Positions 53,078 to 60,520 of a DNA stretch of 64,000 bases are shown one piece after another. Every line of letters starts with the position of its first letter. Position 1 is the stretch's first letter. The notes under the pieces are model-generated. The model saw only the letters and a program-made list of their open reading frames with translations, ran no database searches and was not told the DNA's origin. Made by a program: the position numbers and the translations under genes. Source of the stretch: Methanocaldococcus lauensis (GTDB lineage Archaea > AGJL01 > Methanococci > Methanococcales > Methanocaldococcaceae); the NCBI GenBank assembly GCA_902827205.1, contig LR792634.1, positions 372,001 to 436,000 on the forward strand, given 5' to 3'.

Positions 53078-54175
53078 TTATTCATTTCTTAACGCCTTTA
53101 TTGGGTCTAAATTTGCCGCTTTATATACAGGATATAATGCAGAGATTAAAGAAGTTAAAATTCCAAATATAACTCCAATTATCATATAAACTATTACATA
53201 ATAAGATAGTGATGTTTTTAACAGATAATGTACAATTAAATATCCAAAGAATAAACTCAAAAATGCTCCTATTAAAGAACCAATAATCCCCAAAATTAAT
53301 GCCTCATATAAAAATAATAATATAATGTCTCTTTTTGAAGCTCCCAAACTTCTCATCACTCCAATTTCTTTTGTTCTTTCAACAACACTCATTAACATAA
53401 CATTTCCAATACCAATTCCAGCAACTAATAGAGAAATAGCCCCTATACCCATTAAAAAGTAAGAAACTTTATTTATAACATCATTAATCTTATTAATTAT
53501 TAAATTTAAAGATAAAATGATATATTTTTTCTCCTTCCTATTTAGGATTTTTTCAGTTTCATTTTTGATTTTATTTATATCATTTATATTTTTGACATAT
53601 AAAATAACCCTTGAATAATTCTCATTTCCATAAAATCTTTTATATGTTTTTGCAGTTAAAATTAAAGAGTTATCTGGAAAAAGAAATGTACTATTGTATA
53701 TTCCATTAATTCTTAAAGAGATATTTTTTATCTCCAATTGATTTCCAATACTAACACCATTTACTTTTGAAAAAAAGGTATCAACAGCAACTGATGTGTC
53801 TGAAACTTTTACTCCTAAATTTAAATACTTTATATCATTTTTATCAATACCAAAGATATTTGCATAAGCCCTCTTATTTTTACCTTTTATATACACATAA
53901 TCTGATGTGGCATAAATTGGAATAATCTTACAATTTAAAATTCTTAATCTATCAATATCTTTTTTATCAATTGATGTATATCCATTCTGATAATTTGGAA
54001 ATATTATAATATAATTTGAAATACTTCCCAAATTTTCCATAATTCCTTGTTTTAATCCTCCTCCTAAAATTCCTAATGAAGATATTGCTGCTACTCCAAT
54101 AATTATCCCTAACAATGCTAAAATACTTCTCAAAAAATGCCTTTTTAAATTTCTCTTAGCCATTTCAAAATACAT
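53078..54175 (-). CDS. MacB-type ABC transporter permease
   Basis: A 365-residue permease with the MacB/FtsX layout: one N-terminal transmembrane segment ([20 protein letters not shown]), a periplasmic-type extracytoplasmic domain (about 40-240), then three segments from about 245 to 350 containing [20 protein letters not shown]. Such permeases do not pump substrates across the membrane in the usual way; they power extracytoplasmic work or peptide export. It ends the operon that begins with SpoIIM. GTGATATTTT precedes the ATG. M. jannaschii carries the same gene order, so this is not new to this genome. Confidence 0.88.
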
Positions 54176-54197: not shown

Positions 54198-54887
54198 TCA
54201 ATTTAATACCTCTTCTTTCTCAATTCTTCCATCTTTAATGTAAATTATTCTATCTCCAAATCTTGCAACATTTGGGTCGTGAGTAACTACAATTATAGTT
54301 TTTCCATTTTCATTTAATTTTTTTAACAACATCATAATCTTTTCTCCTGTCTTACTATCCAAAGCTCCTGTTGGTTCATCTGCTAATATAATTGGTGGAT
54401 TATTTGCCAAAGCTCTCGCTATAGCCACTCTCTGCTGTTGTCCCCCACTCAATTGATTTGGCTTATGATTGGCAAATCTCTCCTCTAATTCAGCCATTTT
54501 TAAACACTCTAAAGCCCTTTTTTTTCTCTCTTCTTTACTCATTGAATTTCTATACTTAAAAATTAGTGGAAGTTCTACATTTTCTAAGGCAGTTAATAGA
54601 GGAATTAAATTAAATTGCTGAAAGACAAAACCAATTTTATCTCTCCTAATTTTTGTTAATCCATTGTCATCTAAGTCATTTGTCCTTATATTGTCAATAT
54701 AAACCTCTCCTTCTGTTGGTTTGTCCAAACAACCAATAATATTTAAAAGTGTAGATTTTCCACTTCCAGAAGGGCCCATAATTGAAACAAACTCTCCCTC
54801 TTTTATTCTTATATTTAAATCTTTTAGGGCGTATATGGTCTCATCTCCCATTTTGTAGATTTTTGTTACATTTTTTAGTTTAATCAT
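54198..54887 (-). CDS. MacB/LolD-type ABC transporter ATPase
   Basis: A 229-residue ATPase with Walker A GPSGSGKS, the signature LSGGQQQR and Walker B IILADEPTGALDSKTG, the LolD/MacB pattern. Its M. jannaschii counterpart is a structural model for ABC ATP-binding proteins. It pairs with the MacB-type permease encoded 22 bases downstream. GGGAAAGAATG precedes the ATG, and its start overlaps the end of the upstream gene by 8 bases, indicating coupling. Confidence 0.95.
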   Translation of the reverse strand: MIKLKNVTKIYKMGDETIYALKDLNIRIKEGEFVSIMGPSGSGKSTLLNIIGCLDKPTEGEVYIDNIRTNDLDDNGLTKIRRDKIGFVFQQFNLIPLLTALENVELPLIFKYRNSMSKEERKKRALECLKMAELEERFANHKPNQLSGGQQQRVAIARALANNPPIILADEPTGALDSKTGEKIMMLLKKLNENGKTIIVVTHDPNVARFGDRIIYIKDGRIEKEEVLN

Positions 54888-56400
54888 TCTTTCCCTTTTT
54901 AAATCCTCTATAAATTAAATAAACCACTCCTATAACAAATATAATTCCTATCCCCATTACTAAATAATTAATTTCCTCACTATTTTCATTTTTTAAGGAA
55001 ATAACTTCTTTATTAATTTTTATTGTTTTATGGATTGTTATTAAGTTGTTATTTTCATCCCTATATGTTATTTTAATTGGAATTTCGCTTACATTTCCAT
55101 TTATTACACAGTGTAATTCAAAACTTCCATAATCATCAGGGTTTAAAGTTCCTACAAAATAGTTCTCATATGGCTTTTTTGGGATTATATTCTTTGTTTT
55201 TTCTATTGAAATTAGAACACTCTTCGCCTTCCCAGTTCCTATATTGTCAATATCCCCAGTTATTTTTACCTCATTAAATGAACTTTCTATATTAATTCCA
55301 CTTAAAACTAAATCTGCCTTTCCTATAACATTTATTGTTAAATTTTTCTCTATTTGGTTGTTATCAAAGTATATAACTACGGGAATTGAGGTAATTCCTT
55401 CTTTATCTACTTTTATTTGGAATGATGTATTTTTTATTTCTCCTTTTTTAATAAATACGGTTTTTTGGTTATTTCCAATAAAGTATTTACTTATTTGGAC
55501 TATAAATAGAGAATCTTTATAGTTATTTTTTATTGAGATTGTTAAATTATTAATTTTTCCAACTGTTATTATTGGATTGTTTATATTTATCGAAATTAAT
55601 TTATTTGGAAACACATTGAATGTTAAACTGCCTAAATTCTCAACTATATTTTTATTCTGATATGTTAAAGTTTCTGTTTTTGAATCCTCATCTATTGTTT
55701 CTGATTTTTGAGTTAATTCCAATAAATTATAAGGATTTTCGTAGGATATTTTATAATTTATATAATAAACTCCCTCTTTTTTAGCAAATATTGTTAGTGG
55801 AATGTAAGTTGTAATTTTAGGACTCAAAGATGTTATTGTAAAAGTATTGTCTCCTAAAATTACTAAATTGTTTGAATTTTGGAAGGTTATTTTAATATTC
55901 TCAGCTGTTCCTGTTCCTTTATTAGTTAATAGAATTAAAACTTTATTAGTTCCAACTTTTAGAATATTACTGTTAGGTTTTATTATAATATTTGCCTTTC
56001 CTCTTACAGGAAGTGTAAAAATTCTATTTTCAGAGTATTGTTCTCCATTTTTAGTATAGTTACAATAAACTACCATTTTATAGTCATAATTTGGTGCATT
56101 ATCTTTAATTTTTATTATAAAATGAGCAACACCAATTTCAGATGGGAAAAGATGTCCTATCCACTGCTTACCTTTGATTATTTGAATATTATTTTTTGAC
56201 ATTTGGTTGTAAGGTTTTATATAAACGAGAGTGTTATTAATCTCCTCATCTGATTCAAATGTTACATATAAATCATAGGTTTTTGAAGGCTCTAAGTATT
56301 GAGTTTTATAGTCAATATTTTTAAATGTTATATAGGCAGAGGTTTGAGTTAAAAGAATAAAAAGTAAAAAAGTAATTAATAGATTTTTTAATTCTCTCAT
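54880..56400 (-). CDS. Membrane-anchored CARDB/NEW3-like surface protein of the ABC operon
   Basis: A 506-residue protein with an N-terminal signal peptide (NLLITFLLFILLTQTSAYIT), several extracytoplasmic beta-sandwich repeats of the CARDB/NEW3 type (for example KVGTNKVLILLTNKGTGTAE and ADLVLSGINIESSFNEVKIT), and a C-terminal membrane segment near 475-500 followed by the tail RGFKKGKND. It probably folds outside the membrane and works with the MacB permease, like the periplasmic partners of MacB exporters in bacteria. GAGGGAAAAAT precedes the ATG. Confidence 0.82.
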   Translation of the reverse strand: MRELKNLLITFLLFILLTQTSAYITFKNIDYKTQYLEPSKTYDLYVTFESDEEINNTLVYIKPYNQMSKNNIQIIKGKQWIGHLFPSEIGVAHFIIKIKDNAPNYDYKMVVYCNYTKNGEQYSENRIFTLPVRGKANIIIKPNSNILKVGTNKVLILLTNKGTGTAENIKITFQNSNNLVILGDNTFTITSLSPKITTYIPLTIFAKKEGVYYINYKISYENPYNLLELTQKSETIDEDSKTETLTYQNKNIVENLGSLTFNVFPNKLISININNPIITVGKINNLTISIKNNYKDSLFIVQISKYFIGNNQKTVFIKKGEIKNTSFQIKVDKEGITSIPVVIYFDNNQIEKNLTINVIGKADLVLSGINIESSFNEVKITGDIDNIGTGKAKSVLISIEKTKNIIPKKPYENYFVGTLNPDDYGSFELHCVINGNVSEIPIKITYRDENNNLITIHKTIKINKEVISLKNENSEEINYLVMGIGIIFVIGVVYLIYRGFKKGKND

Positions 56401-56414
56401 ATTTTTCCCTCAAT

Positions 56415-57068
56415 TTATAGAAATTTTAATACACTGTATAGTTGATATAAACCAAATATAACTGTTGGGATTAATGCAGTTATAAATGCCTTCTTTAACT
56501 CTAAGTTTCTTGCATATTTTATAGCATAAGTCCATATATATAAGTTCCATATCGTTACAGCAAATCCTATTAATGTATTGGTGTATATTAAAGTTTTTGG
56601 AAATATCTGTTTCATAACCATTTTAACAATAATAGGGTTTTGTAGTTGTTCCATTGATAATGTAGGAATATGAACATTTGATAGGAAATAGTATCCAATT
56701 GGTATAGTTATACATAAAGCAATTAAATTAGGTAAAAATCCATAGCCAGTGAATTCAAAAGTTCTTTTAAAAGAGCCATTCCCACCAAATGCCATTGATA
56801 TAATATGCATAACTATTGCTATTAATAGCCACGCCACAAACCCTCCAATAAATGCTGAAATCGCTAATATAATTGTCATAAATGATAACATGCTCTGCAT
56901 ATCTTGAGGAAAGATTTTAAACATAACTGATGATGTATAGTAGGAGTATATTGCTATTAATATAGAGAAAATTAAAACTATAATAAATGGCTCTTTAAGA
57001 GAGATTTCTTTATTAGATAAATTTTTAAAGAAGTTGTTTGGATTTAAGATGAGTTCCTTTATATCCAT
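56415..57068 (-). CDS. Yip1-domain membrane protein
   Basis: A 217-residue protein of the Yip1 family: a cytoplasmic N terminus (MDIKELILNPNNFFKNLSNK) then five or six transmembrane segments (about 30-50, 60-95, 105-130, 160-185, 195-215). Yip1 proteins are widespread, of unknown transport or membrane-shaping function; archaeal copies commonly lie beside ABC exporters. GGGGGATATA precedes the ATG. It is 14 bases from the beta-sandwich gene and 54 from SpoIIM, all on the minus strand. Confidence 0.82.
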   Translation of the reverse strand: MDIKELILNPNNFFKNLSNKEISLKEPFIIVLIFSILIAIYSYYTSSVMFKIFPQDMQSMLSFMTIILAISAFIGGFVAWLLIAIVMHIISMAFGGNGSFKRTFEFTGYGFLPNLIALCITIPIGYYFLSNVHIPTLSMEQLQNPIIVKMVMKQIFPKTLIYTNTLIGFAVTIWNLYIWTYAIKYARNLELKKAFITALIPTVIFGLYQLYSVLKFL

Positions 57069-57122: not shown

Positions 57123-57662
57123 TTATGTTAATAGATAATTTGCTACTTTTGGAGTAATATAAACCTCCACAAAAGCGGCTATAATTATCAATATTATTGA
57201 AATTAATGCTAATTTTAAAAATTCTTTTATATCTTCTTCTGTTATTGGTTTTTCTTTTTTGTCTAAGAGATAAAGAGTTATTTCATAAGGAATCTTAAAC
57301 CCAGCAAGTGCAGATATAAGCATTGCTGGAATTTCAAATATTCCATGTGGAAGAATTAAGGCTAAAATAAGTTTTATAGGCATTCCGCTATTGTATGCAT
57401 TAGAAATTAATAGTCCAAGATTAAAACCATTAAATATTAAGTTTATAAAAGTGGATAATCCGAAAGTAATGGAGCCAGCTAACATTAAAAAGATTACTTT
57501 TAAGTTGTTTGTTAATATTATCGTTAAAGGGGCAGGCGTGAAACATTTTGGTAGATATCTATTATTTTTATTTATATAACTTCCATTTATGTTTATGGAT
57601 AATAATAATCCAAGAGAAAATATCAATGTACTTATTAATATTAGAAACATGACCTTTTTCAT
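57123..57662 (-). CDS. SpoIIM/DUF95 membrane protein
   Basis: A 179-residue protein with a signal-anchor N terminus (MKKVMFLILISTLIFSLGLL) and four or five more hydrophobic segments; LILPHGIFEIPAMLISALAG (about 108-127) is the DUF95/SpoIIM signature. SpoIIM-family proteins occur in circular-bacteriocin gene clusters and in sporulation. Here it is the intact copy of a gene of which two deleted copies lie nearby. GGGGAATTTA decides the ATG at 57662; earlier in-frame ATGs lack a site. It follows the peptide cassette and precedes the exporter operon. Confidence 0.87.
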   Translation of the reverse strand: MKKVMFLILISTLIFSLGLLLSININGSYINKNNRYLPKCFTPAPLTIILTNNLKVIFLMLAGSITFGLSTFINLIFNGFNLGLLISNAYNSGMPIKLILALILPHGIFEIPAMLISALAGFKIPYEITLYLLDKKEKPITEEDIKEFLKLALISIILIIIAAFVEVYITPKVANYLLT

Positions 57663-57682
57663 TAAATTCCCCATATTAGTCA

Positions 57683-57901
57683 TTAACTTAAAGTTTCAGA
57701 TATTTGGAGTTTTTTAGTTATGAAAACTCTTTTTAGTAAGTAATCAAGTACAAATATAACAATAAGTCCTACAATTGGGATAAGATAATTTTTATTTATT
57801 ATATATGCATAGAGGATAATAAAAATAAAGATACCATCAATAACAAAAATTATTCCTTTTTCTTTAGTACTTAGTAATTTTTCAGAATAATATGGATAAC
57901 A
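57683..57901 (-). pseudogene. Small basic membrane protein fragment
   Basis: Minus-strand 57901-57683 is open for about 72 codons with two hydrophobic segments and a basic tail (EKGIIFVIDGIFIFIILYAY...YLLKRVFITKKLQISETLS) but no start codon in frame. An ATG at 57901-57903 lies in a neighbouring frame; removing one T between it and the SEKLL codons would join them. It is therefore a truncated or frameshifted gene. Its size, two segments and positive charge resemble immunity proteins of circular bacteriocins. Confidence 0.5.
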
Positions 57902-57958: not shown

Positions 57959-58165
57959 TTAGTTATGTTTATGTTCATCAATTTTTGTATTTTTAGCCCT
58001 ATTGAAGATATTAAATACCATATAGGTAAATAATCCAGCTGTAATACCTATAATAGCTCCAATCCATCCCTGACTTAATGTGCTTATATTACTTAAAATA
58101 TAATATAGCAATATTCCATAAATACCTGCGATTATACATCCAATAAGTATATTATAAAATTTCAT
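57959..58165 (-). CDS. Small two-segment membrane protein of the peptide cassette
   Basis: A 68-residue protein with two hydrophobic segments (about 5-28 and 32-54) and a charged tail (NRAKNTKIDEHKHN). No family is recognised. It lies 60 bases downstream of the peptide A gene, between it and SpoIIM, all on the minus strand, where bacteriocin loci place their immunity protein. GGTGATTTA precedes the ATG. Confidence 0.65.
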   Translation of the reverse strand: MKFYNILIGCIIAGIYGILLYYILSNISTLSQGWIGAIIGITAGLFTYMVFNIFNRAKNTKIDEHKHN

Positions 58166-58225: not shown

Positions 58226-58555
58226 TTAATATCCTGCTACTGCTGCTCCAATAATAGCTCCTATTACTGCTCCTGCAGGTCCAGCCAATGATCCACATTC
58301 TGCACCTTCTTCTGCACCAGCCATCATAAGTCTAAGTGCTAAAGCCCTTCCAACAGCCTTTCCAACTTTTTTTCCTCCATCTACAAGAACATACCCTAGA
58401 ACTCCACTAGCTGCACCTCCTGCAGCACCATACTTCTCTGTTAAGTAGTATCCAATATCCCCTAAAACAACAGGCTCAGCGACTAAGGCACCTATCATGC
58501 TTACTAAAACTACAGCTCCAAAAATCTTATATACATCCTTTCCCAAAAATTTCAT
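58226..58555 (-). CDS. Secreted hydrophobic Gly/Ala-rich peptide A (bacteriocin-like precursor)
   Basis: A 109-residue peptide precursor. Residues 1-26 look like a signal peptide (MKFLGKDVYKIFGAVVLVSM then IGALVA), with a likely cut after ALVA; the next residues EPVVLGDIG are shared with peptide B. The core is very rich in Gly and Ala, has a basic patch (DGGKKVGKAVGRALALR), an acidic patch (GAEEGAECGS) and ends in GPAGAVIGAIIGAAVAG, a GxxxG glycine zipper like those of membrane-active bacteriocins. GAGGTGGCATT precedes the ATG but can be paired with CCACC in the leader. No homologue is recalled. Confidence 0.72.
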   Translation of the reverse strand: MKFLGKDVYKIFGAVVLVSMIGALVAEPVVLGDIGYYLTEKYGAAGGAASGVLGYVLVDGGKKVGKAVGRALALRLMMAGAEEGAECGSLAGPAGAVIGAIIGAAVAGY

Positions 58556-58803
58556 AATGCCACCTCTTTATGGTGGTTCAATATAGCCCGTTAATATTGG
58601 CTCCGCCCATAGAGGGCATCATCGCCAACTATTTTTTAATTTTTTTATTAGGTAACTTTAACATATTTTTTAATATCCATATTATTTTTCGTAATTATAA
58701 TTGTAAAAACTCATATATATTACTATTTCAAACTAAATAGTAAAGTATATAATTAGCCAATTAAGATTTTTAATAATTGTAAAATAACTAAAACTTTACA
58801 AAG
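58551..58803. repeat. About 250-bp duplicated upstream region, copy A
   Basis: Positions 58551-58803, the leader and promoter region of peptide A, are almost identical to 60270-60520 in front of peptide B, differing by a few substitutions and one small indel (ATTAGG versus ATAGG). The stretch fills the gap 58556-58822. Within it, CGAAAAATAATATGG (minus strand, about 58678-58692) and GAAATAGTAATATATAT (about 58714-58730) are promoter-like; the first gives a leader of about 100 bases. Confidence 0.93.
58560..58628 (-). promoter_or_regulatory. Leader RNA with kink-turn and RBS-sequestering hairpin (peptide A)
   Basis: On the minus strand 58628-58597 reads UUGGC-GAU-GA-UGCCC, loop UCUAU, GGGCG-GA-GCCAA: a C-helix, a three-base bulge, tandem G.A/A.G pairs and a non-canonical helix, exactly the kink-turn layout. 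Downstream, CCACC (58576-58572) pairs with GGTGG (58564-58560), loop AUAAAGA, hiding the ribosome binding site; between them CAAUAU...AUAUUG (58599-58578) can pair. L7Ae binds kink-turns in archaea, and several riboswitches contain one. The fold is derived by eye. Confidence 0.62.
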
Positions 58804-58822: not shown

Positions 58823-59065
58823 TTACTTTAATTTTTTTATTAGTTCTTCTTTTGGAATATTATTCCACTTAGAAACATCATTTAAAATAGCATTTAATGT
58901 TCCTTTTGCTATCTCTTCGTGATATGGAACGGTTATGTTATGGATTCCATATTCTGTTTCTTTTCTTAGTCGTATATGACTACCTCTTTGTCTAACAATC
59001 TCATATCCCAACTTTTTAAGAAATTTTATTAAATCTCTACCACTAACAACTGGAAGTTTATGCAA
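58823..59065 (-). CDS. hicA: HicA-family mRNA interferase toxin
   Basis: An 80-residue toxin with the double-stranded-RNA-binding-like HicA fold: SGRDLIKFLKKLGYEIVRQR then GSHIRLRK, whose histidine is catalytic, and ITVPYHEEIAKGTLNAILND. HicA cleaves mRNA unless bound by HicB. The gene overlaps hicB by 8 bases and is expressed after it. It sits between the SpoIIM remnant of cassette 2 and the peptide A leader. Confidence 0.92.
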   Translation of the reverse strand: MHKLPVVSGRDLIKFLKKLGYEIVRQRGSHIRLRKETEYGIHNITVPYHEEIAKGTLNAILNDVSKWNNIPKEELIKKLK

Positions 59066-59270
59066 AATTAGACACCTCCATTTCAGAAACAGAGAGGATT
59101 TTTATAATTTCTCCTGCCTTTATCTCATCTTCAAAATGCAATTCTACCGCTTCCTTAATATTTTTCATTAATTCATCTAATGTCTTTCCCTGTGTAAATA
59201 TACTTACATCAATACCTTCTGCAACCCAGTATTTGCCATCGTAAAAAACTCTAAAGTTAATAGTTTTCAT
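59058..59270 (-). CDS. hicB: HicB-family antitoxin
   Basis: A 70-residue HicB-type protein with the partial RNase H-like fold: FRVFYDGKYWVAEGIDVSIF, then TQGKTLDELMKNIKEAVELH, which is the HicB signature. A separate DNA-binding domain is absent, so it is the short antitoxin type. AAGGTGGTTTAA precedes the ATG. It is upstream of hicA in the usual archaeal order (antitoxin first). Confidence 0.9.
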   Translation of the reverse strand: MKTINFRVFYDGKYWVAEGIDVSIFTQGKTLDELMKNIKEAVELHFEDEIKAGEIIKILSVSEMEVSNFA

Positions 59271-60274: not shown

Positions 60275-60520
60275 AATGCCACCTCTTTATGGTGGTTCAA
60301 TATAGCCCGTTAATATTGGCTCCGCCCATAGAGGGCATCATCGCTAACTATTTTTTAATTTTTTTATAGGTAACTTTAACATATTTTTTAATATCCATAT
60401 TATTTTTCGTAATTATAATTGTAAAAACTCATATATATTACTATTTCAAACTAAATAGTAAAGTATATAATTAGCCAATTAAAGTTTTTGATAACTGTAA
60501 AATAGTTAAAACTTTACAAA
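60270..60520. repeat. About 250-bp duplicated upstream region, copy B
   Basis: Near-identical to 58551-58803 (see copy A). The copy ends just before the RelE-type toxin gene. Differences cluster at its far end (AAAGTTTTTGATAACTG versus AAGATTTTTAATAATTG). Confidence 0.93.
60279..60347 (-). promoter_or_regulatory. Leader RNA with kink-turn (mismatched) and RBS hairpin (peptide B)
   Basis: Same structure as in copy A: UUAGC-GAU-GA-UGCCC, loop, GGGCG-GA-GCCAA (60347-60316) and CCACC/GGTGG over the ribosome binding site (60295-60279). One change (G to A) leaves an A.C mismatch in the first helix, so this kink-turn should be weaker. Confidence 0.58.

Follow-up and report, generated by a model that had tools for sequence, protein, structure and literature searches.

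Most descriptions of natural translational control by kink-turns (k-turns) in archaea concern sRNP genes (l7ae, nop5 and cbf5). L7Ae represses its own mRNA through a k-turn in the leader and also binds nop5 mRNA (PMC5539422). The k-turns of l7ae UTRs carry a GAU bulge (PMC6298567), and in archaeal box C/D k-turns the 4b:4n pair is strongly conserved as G:C (PMC5689011). Under the published folding rules, a -1b:-1n pair of C:G with 3n = G or 3b = C favours Mg2+ folding (PMC6298567), whereas 4b:4n = G:C disfavours protein-free folding (PMC5689011); all k-turns tested by the folding-rules group fold with L7Ae (PMC6298567). The archaeal RNAs sRkB and sRkC of P. abyssi, of which sRkB is leader-derived, also hold two k-turns that bind L7Ae in vitro. 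They are ~210 nt long with several stems, are OrfB-type transposase-related and have no described link to a bacteriocin-like cluster (PMC3124441).

Clusters for head-to-tail cyclized bacteriocins, in the passages of PMC8659200 drawn on here, consist of a precursor, SpoIIM and a transporter, to which Yip1 and an accessory ABC transporter of three genes are often added. Makarova and colleagues described SpoIIM/Yip1/small-membrane-protein cassettes in archaea, including Methanocaldococcus, as secretion or membrane-remodelling systems (PMC5898192). Here we analysed a 64,000-nucleotide stretch of the Methanocaldococcus lauensis genome (the window; contig LR792634.1, positions 372,001 to 436,000), in which a k-turn leader precedes a small peptide gene of a bacteriocin-like cluster.

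Architecture of the leader

Read on the minus strand, the leader has all the parts of a standard k-turn hairpin at 58629-58596, GUUGGC-GAU-GA-U-GCCC-UCUAU-GGGC-G-GA-GCCAAU, and a second hairpin at the ribosome site. This leader is referred to as copy A, and its elements are as follows.

58624-58629, minus strand: 5' strand of the k-turn C-helix, GUUGGC, with closing pair -1b:-1n = C:G
58619-58623, minus strand: three-base bulge GAU (58623-58621) and bulged-strand GA (58620-58619) of the tandem sheared pairs
58604-58618, minus strand: 3b•3n pair U58618•G58604 and NC hairpin GCCC-UCUAU-GGGC, from fold and covariation
58602-58603, minus strand: non-bulged-strand GA, box-D-like (CGGA here, CUGA or CAGA in relatives), facing GA 58620-58619
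58596-58601, minus strand: 3' strand of the k-turn C-helix, GCCAAU, pairing with GUUGGC 58629-58624
58560-58576, minus strand: ribosome-site hairpin CCACC-AUAAAGA-GGUGG over the Shine-Dalgarno (SD) sequence, a 5-bp stem that recurs in relatives

The initial annotation had read a canonical k-turn in this leader, and every piece that it named is found on the minus strand in the exact order, with strong covariation in relatives. The U-G pair that it placed in the second helix is in fact the 3b•3n pair; the NC helix is formed by four G-C pairs (GCCC 58617-58614 with GGGC 58608-58605) around the loop UCUAU. The C-helix, 3-nt bulge, tandem sheared G•A/A•G pairs and NC helix of a standard k-turn are all present in sequence, in fold and across 39 distinct copies. 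The minimum-free-energy (MFE) structure of the leader (RNAfold) is exactly two hairpins, the k-turn and the ribosome-site hairpin, at -25.2 kcal/mol. With a z-score of only -1.7 the folding energy alone is not convincing, and the case for the element is built on motif rarity and comparison rather than on energy. GAU-type k-turn hairpins have a chance expectation of ~0.05 per 64 kb in Markov-1 sequence, and a chance origin was rejected on that figure. Rfam 15 families gave no match above the gathering score in the window and otherwise only chance-level matches; a tRNA identity was rejected, none being found.

The l7ae 5' leaders (Daume 2017, PMC5539422; Huang 2019, PMC6298567) share with this one a GAU bulge and a tandem G•A/A•G hairpin near the SD of an archaeal mRNA. 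There the SD is part of the k-turn helices or adjoins them, whereas here the k-turn stem-loop neither contains nor directly masks it and the SD sits in a separate downstream hairpin. The l7ae-leader RNA cannot fold without L7Ae, whereas two of three folding features favour protein-free folding here; k-turns also often occur in pairs here, and the gene products are secreted peptides rather than sRNP proteins. The likeness to the archaeal box C/D sRNA k-turn extends to the GAUGA and (C/N)NGA strands and 4b:4n = G:C. A guide sRNA identity was nevertheless rejected because the C-like and D-like strands close a short, perfect and covarying hairpin, with no guide stretch and no terminal stem around a C'/D' unit. 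A conserved box C/D sRNA of ~66-73 nt with the terminal stem UUGGC/GCCAA is present in several genomes of the genus (L084, G000:C1:572266-572338, plus strand); such matches (~66 nt, e.g. G000:572266) look like true box C/D sRNAs, score weakly with the k-turn model and were set apart from the family.

The window holds a second leader (60348-60279), almost the same as copy A.

60315-60348, minus strand: copy B k-turn, one C-helix pair broken (A•C, by a G-to-A change)
60279-60295, minus strand: copy B ribosome-site hairpin, identical to that of copy A

The copy B peptide gene (60274-60000, minus strand) is frameshifted, with AAAGG in place of the AAAGGG found in two copies of the sister genome G005, and copy B is probably a decaying paralogue.

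A hairpin over the ribosome site

In copy A, 19 nt separate the k-turn from the ribosome-site hairpin, whose arms are CCACC (58576-58572) and GGUGG (58564-58560). The 3' arm holds most of the SD GAGGUG (58566-58561), five bases ahead of the ATG (58555-58553, minus strand). The proposed CCACC/GGTGG closure of the ribosome binding site is thus confirmed as a 5-bp hairpin covering the SD. Of 37 k-turn leaders, 23 have a perfect stem of 4 bp or more that masks the SD, compared with 18 of 275 background genes (6.5%) from the same genome, an enrichment with binomial p = 1e-18, a value that ignores relatedness and the slightly different loop limits (3-14 in leaders, 3-12 in background genes). The mask takes the form CCACC/GGUGG, UCACU/AGUGA or, with the SD GGAGGUGA, either CACC/GGUG or CUCC/GGAG, and a few k-turn leaders lack the hairpin. 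Formal covariation is modest (three double changes in 17 rows), as expected since the ribosome fixes one arm.

The two hairpins use separate nucleotides and fold together in the MFE structure, and the linker between them varies in length and sequence among relatives. A conserved strand exchange between them was looked for across the family and not found. With a variable linker and no mutually exclusive pairing, coupling of the two hairpins is not visible in the sequence, and the initial description of a "ready-made translational switch" goes beyond what the sequence shows. In the leader L096 (G006:C1:1011590-1011660, plus strand; k-turn G006:1011599), CCAAACU has two possible pairing partners, the 5' strand of the C-helix and the AGUUGG of the ribosome site, which makes this leader, alone in the family, a real candidate for strand exchange.

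Conservation across Methanococcales

Covariance-model searches yielded 53 standard k-turn copies, 39 of them distinct, in 15 of 36 Methanococcales genomes. The model, built from the k-turn alone, also matched other genera of the order, and DNA and peptide searches within the genus found the leader upstream of the peptide family. In an alignment of 44 distinct rows, which include two chance-level matches and three variants and were fitted to the model with a resulting bias toward structure, 94.7% of cells are paired (99% in the NC helix). The alignment has a covariation score of 0.449; shuffles give 0.167 ± 0.017 (0 of 500 as high), and slid partners no more than 0.137. Compensatory, both-sided changes back the helices at four of five NC pairs and one of five C-helix pairs. 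The raw NC strands, compared model-free, show the same pairing: GCCC/GGGC, GCCUC/GAGGC, GCUCC/GGAGC, GAACAU/AUGUUC, GAAUAG/CUAUUC, GGAC/GUCC and GCUUCU/AGAAGC.

Around this changing helix the GAU bulge and both GA strands show no variation among aligned standard members. Position -1b:-1n is C:G in 36 of the 39 distinct k-turns and U:G in the rest, 4b:4n is G:C in 38 and G•U in the remaining one, and 3b:3n is U•G in 25, U:A in 5, C•U in 5, U•U in 3 and A:U in 1; 3n = G or 3b = C in 30 of 39. The 5b:5n pair switches among C:G, A:U and G:C, and from there outward all changes are compensatory. Terminal loops vary freely, from UUAU to GUGCCAG, and the family alignment revealed no conserved nucleotides outside the k-turn core and the ribosome-site hairpin. 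A UAUA loop was rejected as a conserved docking motif, being common in Methanocaldococcus and absent from other genera.

Thirteen leaders carry two k-turns: in five, two standard k-turns lie 35-40 nt apart (G007, G013 twice, G023 twice), and in eight more the second is a k-turn-like hairpin, often GGC-UGUGAU-GA. A third k-turn of the family in the M. lauensis genome lies upstream of a broken DUF4855-like gene (L083, G000:C1:556418-556456, plus strand); that gene encodes 196 aa in G009, and a related gene stands behind a similar leader in G023. No description of the leader family was found in the open-access literature. The leader is a new, undescribed RNA family of a known mechanistic kind, with members in other Methanococcales genera. 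The initial observation was correct and understated; it overlooked the tandem k-turns, the spread of the regulon across the order and the bacteriocin-like cluster.

Genes behind the leader

Downstream of copy A, the following genes lie on the minus strand.

58226-58555, minus strand: 109-aa peptide gene, MKFLGKDVYKIFGAVVLVSMIGALVAEPVVLGDIG..., with a conserved hydrophobic N-terminal part and a variable Gly/Ala-rich part
57959-58165, minus strand: 68-aa small membrane protein of the cluster
57123-57683, minus strand: SpoIIM-family membrane protein (PF01944, E 6.8e-28)
56415-57068, minus strand: Yip1-family membrane protein (PF04893, E 8.3e-29)
54880-56400, minus strand: CARDB-containing membrane-anchored protein
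54198-54887, minus strand: ABC transporter ATPase
53078-54175, minus strand: MacB/FtsX-type ABC permease

The peptide family has a common N-terminal part (..KIFGAVVLVSMIGALVAEPVALGDIG) and a divergent C-terminal part. The 109-aa peptide matches no Pfam or NCBIfam family; its AlphaFold2 model is all helix and uninformative (pLDDT 53). No member was found in viral contigs, and a scan of named genomes gave matches in three MAGs only. A putative precursor peptide, SpoIIM and a transporter occur together in this cluster, as in circular bacteriocin clusters, where the precursor gene stands with SpoIIM and ABC transporter genes and often with Yip1 (PMC8659200, in the passages cited). The locus differs in being archaeal and in having no Pfam or NCBIfam bacteriocin family match, any cyclized antimicrobial product being putative here; those passages describe no k-turn leader.

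Nearly all leaders of the family precede secreted proteins, mostly short peptides of this circular-bacteriocin-like cluster (SpoIIM, Yip1, ABC transporter), and others stand ahead of larger secreted proteins and the DUF4855-like protein. Cluster-type SpoIIM, defined by a score above ~89 bits or by broken copies in G008 and G034, occurs in exactly the 15 leader-bearing genomes, the 21 others having other paralogues or none; the bit-score split was set after the list had been seen, and shared descent inflates the match. The association of leader and cluster-type SpoIIM is clear. One locus (L086, G023:C2:457500-468500) has five peptide leaders in a row with SpoIIM genes interspersed; promoter, leader and signal segment are conserved along the array and the peptide cores differ, a pattern that suggests cassette duplication and diversification.

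Promoter and transcript

Two promoter elements precede the leader.

58723-58729, minus strand: BRE-like, A-rich GAAATAG just upstream of the TATA box
58715-58722, minus strand: TATA box TAATATAT, a consensus match

The consensus places the predicted transcription start at ~58692, ~25 nt past the TATA box and roughly 60 nt upstream of the k-turn, with a predicted mRNA leader of ~135 nt that includes the k-turn. With this spacing the element should be in the mRNA, and the consensus matches support transcription through it. In most relatives a TATA-like box lies 70-135 nt upstream of the k-turn. Some k-turns follow a second promoter type, so the k-turn is not tied to a single promoter. In this type an inverted repeat, CTTTACAAAGGTAAAG / CTTTACAAAAGTAAAG, lies 10-60 nt upstream of several k-turns in relatives (e.g. 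G013:566460, G034:C85:2488) and is a possible transcription-factor site. In the window, a HicA toxin/HicB-like antitoxin pair (58823-59270, minus strand) lies directly upstream of the promoter region of the peptide gene.

Proposed mechanism and alternatives

The RNA structure, its conservation and its association with these genes follow from sequence comparison. As the best explanation, with a probability of about 50%, we propose that the leader is a cis-regulatory RNA of thermophilic Methanococcales through which a k-turn and an L7Ae-family protein would gate the translation of secreted bacteriocin-like peptides. L7Ae, or its paralogue L30e, would dock on the k-turn; the M. lauensis genome has genes for L7Ae and for a second L7Ae-family protein. 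Such binding is probable: the C/D signature (4b:4n G:C, GAU) makes the leader resemble a protein-binding C/D-type k-turn and not a metabolite aptamer. The initial naming of L7Ae as the k-turn binder is borne out as far as the signature goes, since the GAU bulge, L3 = U, G:C at 4b:4n and the box-D-like NGA strand match L7Ae-bound k-turns.

How binding would act is less certain. With two of the three folding rules favouring protein-free folding of most copies, L7Ae may not be the fold inducer, and "unfolded until L7Ae arrives" is not the state to expect here. The bound protein might make the ribosome site less accessible, either through steric crowding or by keeping the leader folded; the simplest coupling would be steric, with an RNP just upstream of the ribosome site. 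An effect on translation, most likely repression, is weakly inferred, and we place it slightly below even odds. A low basal level would be set by the ribosome-site hairpin, which in isolation is about half open at 85 °C. The peptide would be made while ribosome assembly draws L7Ae onto rRNA and guide RNAs, and a rise in free L7Ae would shut its production down. Conceivable but doubtful is a dedicated L7Ae-family regulon: one or two k-turns would act as protein sensors and the ribosome-site hairpin as gate, tying the production of bacteriocin-like peptides and other secreted proteins to the state of ribosome/sRNP assembly.

Alternatively, the k-turn could bind L7Ae without translational control, the RNP protecting the leader, setting mRNA stability or helping to process a stable leader RNA while the ribosome-site hairpin throttles translation alone. 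This would suit two physically independent hairpins with a linker of variable length, the leaders that keep only the k-turn, and leader-derived, L7Ae-bound k-turn RNAs of P. abyssi such as sRkB (PMC3124441). However, those archaeal mRNA-leader k-turns for which functional data exist control translation (PMC5539422, PMC6298567), and in most leaders the k-turn lies just upstream of the ribosome site; we consider this reading unlikely.

An RNA thermometer, with the ribosome-site hairpin melting at growth temperature and closing on cooling and the k-turn only a stabilising platform, is improbable. Calculated SD pairing in copy A does fall from ~0.9-0.95 at 65 °C to ~0.6-0.67 at 85 °C. The calculated energy of the hairpin alone is -7.5 kcal/mol at 37 °C, -2.4 kcal/mol at 65 °C and 0 kcal/mol at 85 °C, the nearest-neighbour extrapolation to 85 °C being rough. 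Yet any short GC-rich hairpin is marginal at that temperature, and a thermometer does not account for a k-turn core that is conserved above all other parts, is often doubled and is kept in leaders without the hairpin.

The k-turn could also, as it does in SAM-I, shape the pocket of a riboswitch that binds a metabolite or an ion. This reading draws on the folding rules: most copies have the C:G closing pair and 3n = G or 3b = C, features that promote folding by ions, as happens in riboswitch k-turns. G:C at 4b:4n counts the opposite way in the same sequence prediction. The ligand-binding alternative raised in the initial annotation is weakened by the lack of conserved unpaired nucleotides beyond the k-turn and the ribosome-site hairpin and by freely varying loops and stem lengths; secreted peptides are also no obvious metabolite regulon, and we consider this very improbable.

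Finally, spread of promoter, leader and signal-peptide segment as a DNA cassette (duplication, gene conversion), the hairpin having no RNA function, would fit near-identical leaders within a genome (copies A and B, repeated G003 copies) whose identity spans promoter and first codons, but it merits hardly any credence given an NC helix that changes on both sides between genomes yet stays paired, an invariant asymmetric GAU-GA/GA core, and k-turns found with at least two promoter types and several unrelated genes.

Significance

A clean, covarying and repeatedly duplicated k-turn leader marks a secreted-peptide regulon in 15 genomes. Its natural single and double k-turns, with differing 3b:3n pairs, offer material for in vivo tests of the Lilley folding rules, and the family is a source of thermostable parts for synthetic L7Ae switches. 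Archaeal bacteriocin-like clusters, the peptides of which fall into no known protein family, can also be searched for by means of the leader. If L7Ae binds the leader, a ribosome-assembly protein would control inter-microbial peptides; if the regulon reading is true, L7Ae control would reach past its own assembly pathway.
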